This document shows positions 28,174-63,869 of a DNA stretch of 64,000 nucleotides, piece after piece (the first letter of the stretch is position 1; the number at the start of each line of letters is the position of its first letter). A program made the translations under genes and the position numbers. This DNA is from an uncultured Poribacteria bacterium. GTDB lineage: Bacteria; Poribacteria; WGA-4E; WGA-3G. The DNA lies in contig OX639973.1 of NCBI GenBank assembly GCA_951828385.1, positions 5,757,200 through 5,821,199 of the forward strand. The letters run 5' to 3'. Below the pieces are notes generated by a model, which was not told the origin of the DNA, did no database searches, and saw only the letters and a list, made by a program, of their open reading frames with translations.

Positions 28174-28923
28174 TTACTTCGTGAGTCGGTTGATGAGTGA
28201 GGCACTATAGCCTGCACCGAAACCGTTATCAATGTTGACAACGGTGACACCGGAGGCGCAGCTATTTAGCATGCCTAACAAGGCAGCGAGTCCACCGAAA
28301 CTTGCACCGTAACCGATGCTGGTGGGGACAGCAATCACGGGACAATCCACCAACCCACCCACAACGCTCGGAAGCGCGCCTTCCATCCCCGCAATAACGA
28401 TGATAACGCGGGCTGTCAGAAGTTTTTCGTGGTTGCTGATGAGGCGGTGTAAGCCTGCTACACCGACATCGTAAAGGCGTTCCGGTGCGTTTCCCATCAT
28501 CAATACCGTTTCAGCGGCTTCCTCTGCAACCGGTAGGTCGGACGTGCCGGCAGAAACAACGAGAATCCCCGGTGTACCTTCCTCTTCAGATTGGGAAACG
28601 CTAATCGTGCGCCCGAGGTCGTTATAGCGTGCCGCAGGTTGGATGGCTTTTACGGCTTCATACATGTCCGGGGTAGCGCGAGTTGCAAGGAGGGGGTGTC
28701 CCGCAGCGAGAATGCGTTCACTAATCTGCTTGACATGTTCAACGGTCTTCCCTTGACAGAAAATGACTTCCGGGAACCCTGTACGCAGCTGACGATGGTG
28801 ATCAATTTTTGAGAACCCTAAATCTTCAAACGGAAGCGTGCGAAGAGATTGCAGCGCGTCATCCACTGCAATCTCTCCACCTTTAACCTCTTCAAGCAGG
28901 GCTCTTAACTTTTCAATTTCCAT
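28174..28923 (-). CDS. larB: LarB, pyridinium-3,5-biscarboxylic acid mononucleotide synthase
   Basis: A 249-residue member of the LarB/AIR-carboxylase fold. [17 protein letters not shown] (about 52-68), [20 protein letters not shown] (about 129-148), [27 protein letters not shown] and [12 protein letters not shown] are the family's motifs. LarB makes the first intermediate of the nickel-pincer cofactor by carboxylating nicotinic acid adenine dinucleotide. LarC and LarE are not nearby. I start at 28923 because GGGAGGG is 6 bases away; that site lies in an IS605 right end. Confidence 0.9.
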
Positions 28924-28932
28924 TGACACCCT

Positions 28933-28952
28933 CCCACAGATAAATCAGTGGG
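28933..28952. mobile_element. IS200/IS605 right-end hairpin upstream of larB
   Basis: On the minus strand CCCACTGAT, AT-rich loop, ATCTGTGGG (one mismatch), followed by AGGGTGTCA. This matches the right end of IS200/IS605 elements downstream of tnpB. The GGGAGGG that follows is the ribosome binding site of larB. No left end or tnpA is present. Confidence 0.65.
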
Positions 28953-28969
28953 ATTCCTCCGTTCCTGCT

Positions 28970-29112
28970 TCAACGTCCACAGCCTCCAAAGTGAGGTCTT
29001 ACACGGACTCCACAGGCGTTTAGACTCTCCGCCTGCCCGACGGCGAGTAAGTTGGTGGCAGGAGAGGTGGAACTGGTCCCACCACAGCTAAAGTTAGCAT
29101 CCTGAGAAAAGA
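28970..29112 (-). pseudogene. TnpB C-terminal remnant
   Basis: The minus-strand frame reads DANFSCGGTSSTSPATNL, then AVGQAESLNACGVRVRPHFG and GCGR before TGA at 28970. The segment SLNACGVRVRP fits the C-terminal end of IS605 TnpB proteins, after the zinc ribbon; the RuvC and zinc-ribbon parts are gone. It runs up to the stop of the YtxH gene at 29116, so the rest has been deleted. This DNA also corresponds to the 3' region that yields omega RNA in live elements. Confidence 0.68.
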
Positions 29113-29115
29113 CCC

Positions 29116-29526
29116 TTAGGCTTTGTCAGTCGCCTCTTCGTCGGTTCCGTCATTGCTGCCAACGCCCGGGATGGACTCGGCAATTTTAGCGCGGACATCC
29201 GCAGAAACTTTACGACCCGCTTCTACGGCAGTCTTTACCTGTTCACCTGCTTCATGGAGACGTTCTTTTGAGGTATCTACGATGCCGTGAACGCTCTCTT
29301 TGCTTTGTTCCACGAGCGTCTGAGCACCTTCTCGTGCGCTACTGGCAGCTTGATGCGCAATTTCAACCGTCCGGTTTTTCGCGTCAACTGAGGTGTCGCG
29401 AATTTTCTGTCGGGTCTCCTTACCGGAACTCGGCGCATAGAGCAAACTCACCACCGCGCCTGCCATAAAACCGGTGAAAAAAGCGAAGACCAGTGTTAGC
29501 CCGTTGTTCTGTCCATTATTGCTCAT
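29116..29526 (-). CDS. YtxH domain protein
   Basis: A 136-residue protein with one N-terminal membrane helix (LTLVFAFFTGFMAGAVVSLLY) that contains the Gly-rich YtxH pattern, then APSSGKETRQKIRD and a long polar amphipathic helix with repeats (ESVHGIVDTSKERLHEAGEQ). YtxH proteins are small stress-linked membrane proteins of unknown mechanism. aaggat lies before the ATG. It is followed upstream by another membrane-anchored coiled-coil gene of similar style. Confidence 0.88.
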   Translation of the reverse strand: MSNNGQNNGLTLVFAFFTGFMAGAVVSLLYAPSSGKETRQKIRDTSVDAKNRTVEIAHQAASSAREGAQTLVEQSKESVHGIVDTSKERLHEAGEQVKTAVEAGRKVSADVRAKIAESIPGVGSNDGTDEEATDKA

Positions 29527-56997: not shown

Positions 56998-59055
56998 TTA
57001 CTTGAGGATGAGCATCCTGTGTGTCGCGGAGAAATCGCCTGCTGTCAGTGTATAGAAATACAAACCACTGGCAACCGCCTCGCCCATCTCATTTCTGCCA
57101 TCCCAATACGCCGCACGACTGCGCGTTTGATACACCCCCGCAGCCTGATGCCCTATCTCCAGGTGGCGCACCAACCTGCCCTGTGTATCATAGATACTTA
57201 TCTGCACAACACTCTGTTTCGCAAGCCGATAAGGGATCCACGTCTCTGGATTAAACGGATTCGGATAATTCGCCAAGAGTGCTGTAGATTTTGGCACCAA
57301 GGTCGCCAAGAGCTGTTCCAACACTTGAAGCCCGCGTTCATAGCTATAAGGCTGCGCTGCCACTGATGTTTCGATTGCGCTCTCAGCAACGGCTTGTTTC
57401 GCCGATTCCACCCACTGCTGCACGTGCGAGGCATGAAGGGCTTGAGCAGACGGTGCCGCCGCAACACTCCCCAAACTATTTGCAACCAAAACTAAGTCCT
57501 GGATATTGATCTCACCATCACTGTTCAGGTCAACCTCCACCACGCCAGACTCACCAAGGTGCGAAGCAACTAACACTAAATCCAATATGTTCACGGTCCC
57601 ATCAGCATTCACATCTCCCATGAGCGATGCCTGCGGATAGCCGGGGGTCCCCAACGCACTCGCTGCGGGTACACCATCATCGTAACCAGGACCAGACTGG
57701 TATTTACTCGCCACCCAGGCTTCGGCTTGATACCCTAACGCATCCGGACGCGCACGATACCAGGCGGCATCCGTCGTTAGCGGGGGTGCCGTCGGCGGTA
57801 TCTCATGACCAAAGAAGTAATTCCCTACACTGTCTTCCCACCCCGTGTCACTTCGCAACAACAACGTGAAATGCGTCTGCGGTAATATCAGCCCCGCATC
57901 AACGAGGGATACGACATTCCCCTCTGGAATGGAGAGCGGCATCTCAGGCACATCTGGGTCGGTGTTCACGAGCAGGAGCAACCCGCCCGCAGGCAGCACC
58001 GTTCCCGCCGGAAATGTAACGACACCCGCTCCGTCACTTGCAACGATGTGCACTTGCCAGCCATCCAGCGTGACATCCGCATCGCTGACATTTCGCAGCT
58101 CCACCCAGTCGTGAGTATCGGTCATGGCGTTGCGGAGTTCGTTGAAAATTACCCGATCCATCGCCAGGGCATCGGCGATACGCGACCGCTCTTCACTGCT
58201 GATATCCGGCAAGGCATCTGCCTCGCCGAAACCTTGCCCGTAGACAGCAGGCAAACAGTCGCTCGGTTTTTGAATCGTCTGGAAGGAAAGGATATAGCCG
58301 GGTGGGCAGCTGGTGTCGGGACCATTCGTGACTTTGATGGTGACATCTATTGATCCCTCTACGCCTGAATTCGCTTCGGCATCAATCCTTACCGAATACG
58401 AATTCTGCCTTTCATAGTCGAGTGATGCTTTGGTTTGCAACTGACCGGTTTCGCTGTCAATATTAAACGATCCGGCATCGGGCCCGCGAAGAACGTAATC
58501 GTCCCGAGAAGATCTGAAATTTGAAGCTGTTACCGCACTTCCGATGTTTGTGTTCGCCCCTGAATTTTCCTGTATCGATCGAGTGGTGCTGCTCCCGTCC
58601 GAAAAACTCAGTTTTACGTCCGTCACCTTGATTGTGACATCAATAGAATCCGCATCGCTGTAGTCGATTATCGGTCCGCTAACGTGATCCGACAGCGGAC
58701 TAATTTCGCCGCTTTGCACGGTAACTGTTACCGAATATGAAGTTTTCGTTTCATAATCGAGTGCCGCCTTGACTTTCAACTGCCCATTGTTGCTATCAAT
58801 GCTAAACGATGCTGCATCCGGACCTCGGAGCACGTACCTGCCGTAATTGCCGCGGTTATGTGCCCAAACAGCACTTCCGATGTTTGTGTTTTCCGCTGTG
58901 CCTTCCCCTACCGAACGGCTTGCGGTGTCATCGTGAAAATGCGGTGGTAGATTCCGAGCTTCGTCAGCATAACCAATACCTGCTATGATGCTCAGTGACA
59001 ACACTGCTGCAAAAATCAACGCTATCGTTATTCTAAGCAAAATTCCGCTACGCAT
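56998..59055 (-). CDS. Secreted cadherin-like, lamin-tail, dockerin, FlgD/T9SS-like protein (array member 1)
   Basis: The start at 59055 follows aaggag. A signal peptide (MRSGILLRITIALIFAAVLS) is followed by two cadherin-like units (SFSIDSNNGQLKVKAALDYE, SFNIDSETGQLQTKASLDYE). Then come a lamin-tail domain (VIFNELRNAMTDTHDWVELR), a dockerin pair ([34 protein letters not shown]) and a C-terminal sorting-type domain (NYPNPFNPETWIPYRLA, GRNEMGEAVASGLYFYTLTA, ending RMLILK). Part of a three-member array. Confidence 0.85.
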   Translation of the reverse strand: MRSGILLRITIALIFAAVLSLSIIAGIGYADEARNLPPHFHDDTASRSVGEGTAENTNIGSAVWAHNRGNYGRYVLRGPDAASFSIDSNNGQLKVKAALDYETKTSYSVTVTVQSGEISPLSDHVSGPIIDYSDADSIDVTIKVTDVKLSFSDGSSTTRSIQENSGANTNIGSAVTASNFRSSRDDYVLRGPDAGSFNIDSETGQLQTKASLDYERQNSYSVRIDAEANSGVEGSIDVTIKVTNGPDTSCPPGYILSFQTIQKPSDCLPAVYGQGFGEADALPDISSEERSRIADALAMDRVIFNELRNAMTDTHDWVELRNVSDADVTLDGWQVHIVASDGAGVVTFPAGTVLPAGGLLLLVNTDPDVPEMPLSIPEGNVVSLVDAGLILPQTHFTLLLRSDTGWEDSVGNYFFGHEIPPTAPPLTTDAAWYRARPDALGYQAEAWVASKYQSGPGYDDGVPAASALGTPGYPQASLMGDVNADGTVNILDLVLVASHLGESGVVEVDLNSDGEINIQDLVLVANSLGSVAAAPSAQALHASHVQQWVESAKQAVAESAIETSVAAQPYSYERGLQVLEQLLATLVPKSTALLANYPNPFNPETWIPYRLAKQSVVQISIYDTQGRLVRHLEIGHQAAGVYQTRSRAAYWDGRNEMGEAVASGLYFYTLTAGDFSATHRMLILK

Positions 59056-59091
59056 AGTCAACTCCTTTTGTTGTTTTGTTGTGGACAAACT

Positions 59092-61521
59092 TTATTTGAG
59101 GATGAGCATGCGACGTGTCGCGGAGAAATCGCCTGCCGTCAATGTATAGAAATACAAACCACTGGCAACCGCTTCGCCCAGCGCATTCCTGCCATCCCAG
59201 TACGCCGCACGACTGCGCGTTTGATACACCCCTGCAACCTGATGTCCTATCTCCAGATGCCGCACCAACCTGCCCTGCGTATCATAGATACGGAGCTGCA
59301 CGTCGCTGCCTTTCGCAAGCCGATAAGGGATCCACGTCTCTGGATTAAACGGATTCGGATAGTTCGCCAAGAGTGCTGTAGATTTTGGCACCAAGGTCGC
59401 CAAAAGTTGTTCCAACACTTGAATCCCGCGTTCATAGCTATAAGGCTGCGCTGCCACCGATGTTTCGATTGCGCTCTCAGCAACCGTTTGCTTTGCGAGT
59501 GTCACCCACTGCTGCACGTGTGAGGCGTGAAGCGTCTGGGCAGACGGTGCCGCCGCAACACTCCCCAAACTATTCGCAACCGCAACCAAATCCTCGGTAT
59601 TAACAGTTCCATCGCCGTTCACGTCCGCCTCCGGTGCCGCCGTTTCACCAAAACGCGAGGCAACAGACACTAAATCCAATATGTTCACAGTCCCGTCCCC
59701 GTTGACATCTCCGATGAGAGATGCCTGCGGATAGCCGGGGGTCCCCAACGCACTCGCTGCCGACACACCCTCATCGTAACCGAGACCCTCCTGATAGCCA
59801 CTCGTTATCCATGCCTCCGATTGATACCCGGGCACATCCGGGCGCGCACGATACCAAGCAGCATCCGTCGTCAGCGGGGGTGCCGTCGGCGGGATCTCAT
59901 AGCCGAAGAAGTAATTGCCGACACTGTCTTCCCAAGACGCATCACTTCGCAGCAACAGCGTAAAATTCGCCTGCGGTAATATCAGTTCCGCATCAACGAC
60001 GGATACGACCTCCCCCTCTGGCATCGATAAAGGCATCTCAGGGGCATCCGGGTCGGTGTTCACGAGCAGGAGCAAGCCGCCCACCGGCAGCACCGTTCCC
60101 GCCGGAAATGTAACGATACTCGTTCCTTCATCCGTAAGGATGCGCACTTCCCAACCATCGAGCGTGACATCCGTATTGCTGACATTTCGGAGCTCCACCC
60201 AGTCGTGGGTGTTGGTCGTGGCGTTGCGGAATTCGTTGAAGATGACGCGATCCATCGTCAGTGCAGCGGCGATACGTGCCCTCTCTTCGCTACTCACACC
60301 CGGCAACGCATCTGCTTGCCCTTGTTGTGTGCGTTCTAAAAAAGTGAACGTATACTCAGCCGTGTCGAAGGTTAGTCCTTCGATCAGGTTTCCCGAAACG
60401 GGGGATTGCACGCTGAGTGTGACCGTTGCCCCCGGAATGGTTCGCCCTTTCTGATTAGGATCTGCCTGCGTAATAGATCCCTTAGTCTCCCAGACGTCAC
60501 TACCAGCAGGCTTAGTCGATCCACCCACATAAAGTGTATAATCCTCTGCTGCAGTTGACGGATCCACCGCAAGTGTTATTTCCCCTTGCCCACGGAACTC
60601 AGTATCGGGTTCTTTGAGAGTGAAATGAACACTCTCAGTCAGACCTGTCGTCTCTGTACCGGGATCAACGTCAATGTATGTGTATGTATCGTCAGAGGGG
60701 GTGAGCAACGCAACGGTTACAGTCGGATATACGGCTGTTCTTTGACTTGACCCGCTAAAGGTGATGGTAACCTCTGCACTAATCTCGCGAGCGTAGCTAG
60801 TTGTGCCGGTGAGTGTTACCGTAACCGTTGCTCTAGGTGCGGCAGGCTTCTGCCAAATAGTTATTACGCTCGGAACGAGACCGGCAAGGTGGCCCGTTAC
60901 GTAACCACTTTTGGCCTCTTCTGGTTCAAAACTGAAAGAAACCGTTGGTCTTGCCCCCACGTATGTGTAGTGGATACCAACCATCTCATCGTTAAATCGT
61001 ATGCCCTCACCAAAATCAGCACGATTAGTGATGGTTATGCGTTCTGTAAACGGATCAAAGTTTACAGCCTGGCGCAGTTCGTCGGGGATCACCACGGCAT
61101 CGTGATTAAGATTTGCATCTTCACCATCAACTCCAGCAGCCCTTATTGTGCCACCATTCAATTCTAAGCTATTGCTACTAATCGAGATACCGTCTCTATC
61201 CTCGTCAGATGCTTGTACCGTGTAGTAGAGTCTGAGTGTTGTCAAATCAGTTGCCTCGTAATAGGCATATTTAGTGGTTCCACCGATATTCAGTCCCAAT
61301 CGTGGCGTGCCTGTCACAGTCACGTTATCGTTAAACGTAACCCACACTTCGATCTCGTCACCTGCCTCATAGGGACCGTAGCTTTCAATAAAAATACCCC
61401 TCACGGTCGGGGCTGATGCTGCAGGTAAAACCCCGTATAGGAAAACAAAAACAACTATACTTGTTACGAAAAATGTCAATTTCTTTGATAGCGAGAGCAT
61501 CGCTGCGTTGCTAAACATCAT
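59092..61521 (-). CDS. Secreted Ig-like, lamin-tail, dockerin, FlgD/T9SS-like protein (array member 2)
   Basis: The start is placed at 61521 behind a ggagg site. The signal peptide (KKLTFFVTSIVVFVFLYGVL) is followed by a SwmB/Ig-like unit (YEAGDEIEVWVTFNDNVTVT, GTPRLGLNIGGTTKYA), further Ig-like strands with Thr/Val-rich repeats, and the same lamin-tail (VIFNEFRNATTNTHDWVELR), dockerin and C-terminal domains as its neighbours. The head is unrelated to that of member 1, while the rear half is nearly the same in DNA. Confidence 0.85.
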   Translation of the reverse strand: MMFSNAAMLSLSKKLTFFVTSIVVFVFLYGVLPAASAPTVRGIFIESYGPYEAGDEIEVWVTFNDNVTVTGTPRLGLNIGGTTKYAYYEATDLTTLRLYYTVQASDEDRDGISISSNSLELNGGTIRAAGVDGEDANLNHDAVVIPDELRQAVNFDPFTERITITNRADFGEGIRFNDEMVGIHYTYVGARPTVSFSFEPEEAKSGYVTGHLAGLVPSVITIWQKPAAPRATVTVTLTGTTSYAREISAEVTITFSGSSQRTAVYPTVTVALLTPSDDTYTYIDVDPGTETTGLTESVHFTLKEPDTEFRGQGEITLAVDPSTAAEDYTLYVGGSTKPAGSDVWETKGSITQADPNQKGRTIPGATVTLSVQSPVSGNLIEGLTFDTAEYTFTFLERTQQGQADALPGVSSEERARIAAALTMDRVIFNEFRNATTNTHDWVELRNVSNTDVTLDGWEVRILTDEGTSIVTFPAGTVLPVGGLLLLVNTDPDAPEMPLSMPEGEVVSVVDAELILPQANFTLLLRSDASWEDSVGNYFFGYEIPPTAPPLTTDAAWYRARPDVPGYQSEAWITSGYQEGLGYDEGVSAASALGTPGYPQASLIGDVNGDGTVNILDLVSVASRFGETAAPEADVNGDGTVNTEDLVAVANSLGSVAAAPSAQTLHASHVQQWVTLAKQTVAESAIETSVAAQPYSYERGIQVLEQLLATLVPKSTALLANYPNPFNPETWIPYRLAKGSDVQLRIYDTQGRLVRHLEIGHQVAGVYQTRSRAAYWDGRNALGEAVASGLYFYTLTAGDFSATRRMLILK

Positions 61522-61578
61522 AATCTGCAACCTCCATTGGTCAGTTTCAGTTAACTAACTTTAGTAAAATTTACAATC

Positions 61579-61712
61579 AGGACTTACGCCCAAAGCCTGT
61601 ATTGCGGATGAAAGGATGGAAGATGAAACGGAAGGCTGGAAGCCCCTTCCAGCCTTCTATCCTTCCAATCTTCCGATCCTTCAAGCAAAGGAAGAGGTTT
61701 TGCGTAAGCCCT
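61579..61712. mobile_element. MITE-like element with AGGACTTACGC ends between array members 2 and 3
   Basis: AGGACTTACGC (61579) faces GCGTAAGCCCT (61702), with ACAAT nearby on both sides (61573 and 61714). Inside is a perfect 11-bp stem GAAGGCTGGAA (61631) and TTCCAGCCTTC (61647). It is in the gap between two co-directional genes of the array and may act as a terminator. Confidence 0.6.
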
Positions 61713-61725
61713 AACAATATTTCAC

Positions 61726-63504
61726 TTATTTGAGGATGAGCATCTTCCGGGTCGCGGAGAAATCGCCTGCTGTCAGTGTATAGAAATACAAACCACTCGC
61801 AACCGCTTCGCCTAACGCATTCCTGCCATCCCAGTACGCCGCACGACTCCGAGTCTCATACAACCCCGCAGCCTGATGTCCCATATCAAGATGCCGCACC
61901 AACCTGCCCTGCGTATCATAGATACGGAGCTGCACGTCGCTGCCTGTGGCAAGCCGATAAGGGATCCACGTCTCCGGGTTAAATGGATTCGGATAGTTCG
62001 CCAAGAGTGCTGTAGATTTTGGCACCAATGTCGCTAAGAGCTGTTCCAACACTTGAATCCCGCGTTCGTAAGTATAAGGCTGTGCTGCCACTGATGTTGG
62101 AGCACGATCAGTAACCACTTGCTTCGCGAGTTCCACCCACTGCTGGACGTGTGAGGCATGAAGTGCTTGCGCAGACGGTGCCGCCGCAACATTCCCGAAG
62201 CTATTCGCAACCGCAACCAAATCCTCGGTATTGACAGTTCCATCACCGTTCACGTCAGCCTCCGGTGCCGCCGTTTCACCAAAACGCGATGCCACAAACA
62301 CCAAATCCAGGATGTTCACAGTCCCATCACCGTTGACATCTCCCATGAGCGATGCCTGCGGGTAGCCGGGGGTCCCCAACGCACTTGCTGCTGGTACACC
62401 CTCATCGTAACCGAGACCCTCCTGATAACCACTCGCTACCCAGGCTTCGGCTTGATACCCGAGTGCATCCGGGCGCGCACGATACCAGGCGGCATCTGTC
62501 GTCAGCGGAGGTGCCGTTGGTGGTATCTCATAGCCGAAGAAGTAATTGCCGACACTGTCTTCCCACGCTGCATCACTTCGCAGCAACAACGTGAAATTCG
62601 TCTGTGGTAATATCAGACCCGCATCAACAACGGATACGACGTTCCCTTCTGGGCTGGAGAGTGGCATCTCGGGTGCATCCGGGTCAGTGTTCACAAGCAG
62701 CAGCAAGCCGCCCGCCGGCAGCACCGTGCCAGCCGGAAATGTAACGATACTTGTTCCTTCATCCGTAAGGATGTGCACTTGCCAACCCTCAAGCGTGACA
62801 TCTACATCGCTAACATTTCGCAGCTCCACCCAATCGTGGGTGTCAGTGGTGGTGTTTCGGAGCTCGTTGAAAATCACGCGATCCATTGCCAGAGCATCGG
62901 CGATACGCGACCGCTCTTCACTACTCACAGTCTCCAACGCATCGGCCTCTGCCGTTGTATCGGTGGGGGCTTCCGATTCACTGACCGTGATGGTGACATC
63001 AATTGTGTCAATCGCAGTCCTTCGAATCTTTATTTGTCCCCCCGCATCAACGGACGTTACGACTTTATCAATACTGACCGTTACTGAATAGGAGGTACGA
63101 TCAAGTGGCCGCCCGACCCTTATCTGACCCGTTGACTTATCTATGCGAAAGGAGACCCAATCCCAATTAGTATCAGACGGCGGAAGGGCATAGTGGATAG
63201 CCTCGCTCGCTGCCGGAGTGACCGGTGCTAAGAGTGGCGGATCTATCGGCTGCTCATCCCCCGGATCTATCGGATACTCCTCTCCCGGACTGATATCCCC
63301 AAAATTATGCGCCTCCACCGGATCTCCGACGAATGTGCCTAACGCTGCGCCTGCCGCGACAGTTCGGGTCGTGCTATCCTCCTCAAAATGTATGCCCTCA
63401 TCTTCTGTCTCATGTGCAAAACCGAGACTCGTTATGCCGTAGATTAAAAACATCACAGCGAAAGTGAGTATCCATATTTTTCGGTTCACAATCCATTCTT
63501 TCAT
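61726..63504 (-). CDS. Secreted cadherin-like, lamin-tail, dockerin, FlgD/T9SS-like protein (array member 3)
   Basis: The start at 63504 follows aaggag (10 bases). The signal peptide (MKEWIVNRKIWILTFAVMFL) is followed by an acidic, Pro-rich linker and a short cadherin-like unit (SFRIDKSTGQIRVGRPLDRT). The rear half repeats the lamin-tail (VIFNELRNTTTDTHDWVELR), dockerin (DVNGDGTVNILDLVFVA) and sorting-type domains of members 1 and 2 almost word for word, ending KMLILK. It has the shortest head of the three. Confidence 0.85.
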   Translation of the reverse strand: MKEWIVNRKIWILTFAVMFLIYGITSLGFAHETEDEGIHFEEDSTTRTVAAGAALGTFVGDPVEAHNFGDISPGEEYPIDPGDEQPIDPPLLAPVTPAASEAIHYALPPSDTNWDWVSFRIDKSTGQIRVGRPLDRTSYSVTVSIDKVVTSVDAGGQIKIRRTAIDTIDVTITVSESEAPTDTTAEADALETVSSEERSRIADALAMDRVIFNELRNTTTDTHDWVELRNVSDVDVTLEGWQVHILTDEGTSIVTFPAGTVLPAGGLLLLVNTDPDAPEMPLSSPEGNVVSVVDAGLILPQTNFTLLLRSDAAWEDSVGNYFFGYEIPPTAPPLTTDAAWYRARPDALGYQAEAWVASGYQEGLGYDEGVPAASALGTPGYPQASLMGDVNGDGTVNILDLVFVASRFGETAAPEADVNGDGTVNTEDLVAVANSFGNVAAAPSAQALHASHVQQWVELAKQVVTDRAPTSVAAQPYTYERGIQVLEQLLATLVPKSTALLANYPNPFNPETWIPYRLATGSDVQLRIYDTQGRLVRHLDMGHQAAGLYETRSRAAYWDGRNALGEAVASGLYFYTLTAGDFSATRKMLILK

Positions 63505-63557
63505 GATAATAAACTCCTTTGGTAATGAGCTGCTCTCGTCCAACCTATTTGAAAAAC

Positions 63558-63576
63558 GGACGAGGAGACCTCGTCC
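63558..63576. repeat. Palindrome GGACGAGG-AGA-CCTCGTCC
   Basis: A perfect 8-bp stem just upstream of array member 3; another stem in the same style as 51487. Confidence 0.6.
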
Positions 63577-63869
63577 CCTACGGGACAGACGTTTTGATGG
63601 CACAACCTAACAGGTTTGCGGCGTACTTGAAGAAACACTTTCTTCGCATTGGATTTTAGCGTTTGCAAAAACCCCAGATGCGACGTGCATCATGCTACAA
63701 AAGAGCGGCCCGCGTAAGTATTATACATTGTAAGTCAATTTATTAAATACATAAAAAATTTATATAGTATTGACTTAATATGTAGAAGTATAATACAAAT
63801 GTGGATAATATGTCAAATTAAAAAGAGAAAGGATGGTGATTTAGAGATTGTTTCTACAAAATTGGAACC

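Follow-up and report, generated by a model that had tools for sequence, protein, structure and literature searches.

Insertion sequences that alter the expression of host genes are known, usually as promoter donors. In IS200/IS605 elements, tnpB-only (IS1341-like) elements and ends-only derivatives (PATEs and MITEs), as in the family described here, intact copies carry subterminal hairpins at both ends; the family also has, like the IS200/IS605 group, a right end that forms the boundary between guide-RNA scaffold and guide, and may share with that group insertion 3' to a short target without duplication. Described ends-only derivatives include some that retain the right end together with the final bases of tnpB (PMC7290912), RAGATH-18 RNAs have been reported solely with IS607 TnpBs (PMC11061315), and TnpB processes the scaffold-bearing mRNA of its own gene (PMC10278001). 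Here we describe a locus in a 6.66-Mb Poribacteria-type genome (G000) at which, as with expression-altering insertion sequences, a transposon end gives a host gene, larB, a cis signal. Unlike the promoter-donating elements, it contributed a Shine-Dalgarno (SD) motif and one base of the start codon. Compared with the IS200/IS605 group, the larB copy has no left end, occupies the start codon and has a scaffold that resembles the RAGATH-18 type. The case is resolved: instead of a promoter, the transposon end brought a signal for translation initiation, and it restored the start codon into which it had inserted; within the part of the open-access literature that was covered, we found no described case of an SD motif supplied by an insertion sequence.

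The right-end relic and its family

On the minus strand of the window (the whole 64,000-nucleotide stretch of DNA analyzed), larB is preceded by alaS, a gene of unknown function and a ytxH-like gene, in that order. The identity of larB is firm (profile match of 297.3 bits against a cut-off of 175), and the ytxH-like gene is its probable operon partner; in four congeners, the ytxH stop codon overlaps the larB ATG (TAATG). Features are collected in Table 1.

Table 1. Features at the ytxH-larB junction (window coordinates)
Feature	Position	Strand	Basis or remark
larB	28174..28923	(-)	nickel pincer cofactor biosynthesis protein LarB, 249 aa; NF033503
larB ATG	28921..28923	(-)	A is the final transposon right-end base, common to the target; TG is host
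Right-end relic of TnpB-type transposon	28923..29047	(-)	homologous copies elsewhere in the genome and in the genus; missing from insertion-free relatives
GGGAGGG SD motif	28929..28935	(-)	core GGAGG, 28930-28934; spacing to ATG six bases
Subterminal right-end hairpin CCCACTGATTTATCTGTGGG	28933..28952	(-)	sequence, family-copy alignment, fold
Guide-RNA (omega/reRNA) scaffold, four helices	28962..29047	(-)	covariation in 18 sequences
18 bp at left breakpoint of relic	29048..29065	(-)	no convincing match in relatives or transposon copies
ytxH-like gene	29116..29526	(-)	upstream of larB, same strand; PF12732, 62.7 bits

As a sequence-only reading of this DNA had proposed, a transposon right end lies directly before larB, with the hairpin CCCACtgatttatctGTGGG followed by AGGGTGTCAATG. 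The relic is 125 bp long and consists of guide-RNA scaffold plus right end, its last bases being TCAA at 28923-28926. Its matches to copies in its own genome reach E values of 1.8e-48 (93%) and 5.2e-34 (86%), so the resemblance is not due to chance; the 93% match extends over 127 bp at C1:4987843, the 86% matches are at C1:4273775 and C1:3418143, and a copy in congener G012 (L140) is 95% identical. The element had been taken to span 28924-29112, which holds for 28924-29047, whereas 29048-29112 contains no recognizable transposon and the last base of the relic, 28923, falls outside that interval; in alignments with insertion-free relatives, 29066-29112 matches their ytxH-larB spacer. The relic has no left end, and a search of the relic for a promoter and a terminator found neither. 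L140 (G012:C607:473-595) is itself a second orphan scaffold plus right end with no left end, and its first base is the same as that of the larB relic.

Full-length copies with the same type of right end, suggested as a check, were found in the genome: C1:4273775 (L003) and C1:3418143 (L004) are the right ends of elements of ~1.4 kb, each with a hairpin-bearing left end (CCCAATCCTTTAGGATTGGG in L003), a promoter-like TTGACA..TATAAT and a single tnpB, without a recombinase gene. The tnpB of L003 encodes 358 aa from its ATG, and the domains of the full-length-copy tnpB are OrfB_IS605, TNB and HTH_OrfB; the scaffold follows the tnpB stop (NLKHLAVGLAES*), and then comes the right end CCCACTGCTTTAGCTGTGGGAGGAAGTCAA. 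L002 is a ~390-bp derivative in which the left end, promoter and scaffold are present and tnpB is absent. Subterminal hairpins occur at both ends in L003, L004 and L002, and the right hairpin is also found in the larB relic. The sequence-only reading saw the last codons of a TnpB and its stop in the relic. However, tnpB in L003 and L004 ends with TAA ahead of the NACGV stretch and the copies nearest to the relic, L002 (93%) and L140 (95%), have no tnpB; the "SLNACGVRVRP" stretch is therefore best read as guide-RNA scaffold.

The family is part of a larger population. Across the whole genome there are 57 TnpB zinc-domain matches (54 in long open frames) against 12 matches to Y1 TnpA, and the genome is rich in tnpB-only elements; the 12 Y1 matches, which lie elsewhere in the genome, could act on the relic family in trans. 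Elements of 365-435 bp without tnpB, similar ones being present in congeners, include L077 (G000:C1:about 4987580-4987970), L115, L126/L158, L146, L151 and L117. Those of the L077 type retain the left end, the TTGACA..TATAAT promoter, a structured ~160-nt leader, a complete guide-RNA scaffold that always begins at the same CTCGC hairpin, and the right end, and they look like guide-RNA-only mobile elements that would depend on TnpB and TnpA in trans.

Insertion junctions and the rebuilt start codon

In intact copies, the left junction is TGAA^G(G/A).. (the caret marks the junction) at 25 of 28 distinct sites, and right ends read ..TCAA^, followed by unrelated host DNA. In the closest relatives, G010 and G029 (LarB 98% identical, larB DNA 95%), the larB start reads ..TTAAATGAA^TGGAAATTG, that is, an empty site AAATGAA^TGGAAATTG (AAATGAA^TGG), and the window reads ..GTCAA^TGGAAATTG, with the right junction between the A and the TG of the ATG. 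Given the target TGAA^, the right end TCAA^ and the relatives' AAATGAA^, it is the final A of the transposon that rebuilds the larB ATG. The rebuilding is mechanical, as a right end that reads SD, spacer and ..AA makes an ATG wherever TG follows the target. The window aligns with G010 and G029 up to 29066 and again from 28924, with 141 bp replacing 42 bp, and the left end of the relic is therefore gone.

For the full-length copies, the insertion-free site of L004 is natively TGAA in G029, G010 and G005. That of L003 is TTAG or TTAA in relatives, not TGAA, which is found at the copy itself; this exception may reflect a point change or a relaxed target. L003 (G000:C1:4272528) is inserted where relatives have the stop codon of a trpD-like gene, at its 3' end, and the end of the protein is altered.

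The insertion had been called old. It is, however, absent from all sampled congeners, G010 and G029 included, and one genome only has the relic; judged from these comparisons, the relic is young relative to the genus and the insertion recent. We infer the following order of events. A TnpB-type transposon with IS605-like ends, more likely a tnpB-less derivative than a full transposon, would have inserted between the A and the TG of the larB start codon, directly 3' to a TGAA target that overlaps this codon; its right end, finishing in GGGAGGGTGTCAA, would have restored the ATG and placed the SD motif at a good distance; and a later deletion would have taken the bulk of the element, including its left end, along with ~42 bp of spacer between ytxH and larB. 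This history of insertion, start-codon rebuilding and deletion, with larB now started through the transposon's SD motif, is the reading that we consider probable.

That GGAGG is instead ancestral host sequence, and its likeness to a transposon end accidental, is barely credible. Some genomes of another family in the order do have GGAG at spacing 10 before larB, but the relic shares 93-95% identity over 115-127 bp with dispersed copies, both target and end signatures match, no such leader occurs in 33 congeners, and the flank comparison with relatives refutes an ancestral origin. Homology and flank comparison likewise rule out an SD motif that arose by chance.

The Shine-Dalgarno motif and larB initiation

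As had been claimed, no SD-like motif other than GGGAGGG, which the right end contributed, lies immediately before larB. Its GGAGG is complementary to the 3' end of 16S rRNA, which in this host ends GGATCACCTCCTTTCT and contains the CCTCC anti-SD, and lies within 5-9 bases of the start (spacing 6). Its duplex with the 16S 3' end has an energy of -10.7 kcal/mol; the congeners average -1.9 and reach -5.6 at best. In a sample of 400 kb of genome plus the window, an SD of at least 5 nt precedes 40% of 256 first ATGs, compared with 7% of 1277 internal ATGs, and, for this genome, a GGAGG six bases from the start ranks as strong. A GTG at 28927-28929 was rejected as the larB start: it overlaps the SD motif and is unconserved.

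The comparison with insertion-free relatives, which had been proposed as a check, gives the same larB start codon and no binding site: the ATG is conserved across 33 congeners, a GGAG-type core within range is present in 0/33, and most of their larB leaders end TTAAATGA-ATG or similar. Because these relatives share the start and not the SD motif, the motif came with the right end. On the preferred reading, ribosomes on a ytxH-larB transcript would pair with GGAGG and begin at the rebuilt ATG, and sister species would start larB at the same ATG without an SD. Since larB has a GGAG of its own at spacing 10 in some genomes of the other family, an SD may have been lost from larB in this genus and then regained from a transposon in one species.

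The claim that the insertion became the 5' signal of larB stands at the level of sequence, where an SD motif was gained, and falls short in that no necessity is implied: larB is presumably translated in the 33 relatives that have no SD there, and the motif may therefore have been added without being needed. Carried further, the same insertion history would have left a neutral relic, with SD-independent initiation of larB kept and the motif of no material effect. The SD-less congeners conserve both larB and its start, the relic is private to one species and the CCCAC..GTGGG hairpin covers part of GGGAGG; yet GGAGG at spacing 6 is a strong motif in a genome that uses SDs, and we regard this outcome as unlikely, though by no means far-fetched. 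Since the first G's of the motif are paired within the hairpin, about two base pairs must open; its loop-closing pair, C-G in other copies, is A-U in the larB relic, and since both sides have changed, the hairpin persists. The effect on translation can be tested directly, since sister species have the same ATG and no SD.

How general the event might be was judged from right ends of the searched form directly followed by ATG, of which there are three places in 38 genomes. The other two ATGs open no gene (frames of 21 and 2 aa), which speaks against a general "portable start" effect; only the larB ATG opens a gene, making larB a single event.

The guide-RNA scaffold in the leader

In an alignment of 18 scaffolds, 99.4% of cells are paired, compared with 41-50% when partners are slid, and double changes occur at six pairs, covariation that supports a conserved four-helix RNA structure ending at the right end. 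A single-sequence fold of the leader is no stabler than shuffled sequences (z -0.49), and the scaffold assignment therefore rests on covariation, not on energy. There is a weak RAGATH-18 (RF03064) match at 28962-29016, with 28.3 bits under the Rfam gathering threshold of 44.9; genome-wide, RAGATH-18 matches at E<=1 are three, the larB relic and two other tnpB-less copies, all under threshold, and an Rfam search of the full-length copies returned nothing above gathering.

IS607 elements of the same genome that encode a resolvase-type TnpA also have, after tnpB, a scaffold homologous to this one (78-91% over 60-69 bp). As with IS607 TnpBs that use a RAGATH-18-derived reRNA, the scaffold core CCUGUGGAG...UGAAgCAGGAA comes after tnpB and does not overlap it; in contrast to IS607, the Rfam score of the larB scaffold is sub-threshold, the ends of the relic family are of the hairpin type and its full-length copies have no recombinase gene. 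The same RAGATH-18-like scaffold, with sub-threshold Rfam scores, is seen in IS607 copies (L074, L075) and in L003 and L004, with their IS605-like ends. A scaffold common to IS607 and IS605-like elements would contradict the statement that RAGATH-18 is confined to IS607 (PMC11061315). The larB leader also illustrates that guide-RNA scaffolds can end up within host mRNA leaders.

With such a scaffold in the leader, a TnpB encoded elsewhere in the genome might bind or process it, cover the SD motif and start and so affect larB, or the first larB codons might act as a guide. The relic has kept the scaffold structure whole, the genome contains intact tnpB copies whose scaffolds are similar, and processing by TnpB of its own scaffold-bearing mRNA is known (PMC10278001), but the scaffold is just 86% identical to the nearest tnpB-bearing genome copies, and we hold such control to be highly improbable. 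In its fullest form, with an orphan guide-RNA scaffold as the larB leader, TnpB tuning larB translation and the first codons serving as a guide against insertion-free alleles (TGAA^TGGAAATTG...), TnpB regulation of larB would be a testable idea of low probability, with very little expectation that it is correct.

Elsewhere in the window, at 56998-63603 (-), three adjacent large paralogues have long, near-identical C-terminal halves (RVIFNE..WVELRN..GW; ANYPNPFNPETWIPYRLA..DTQGRLVRHL segments), probably the product of a recent tandem expansion.
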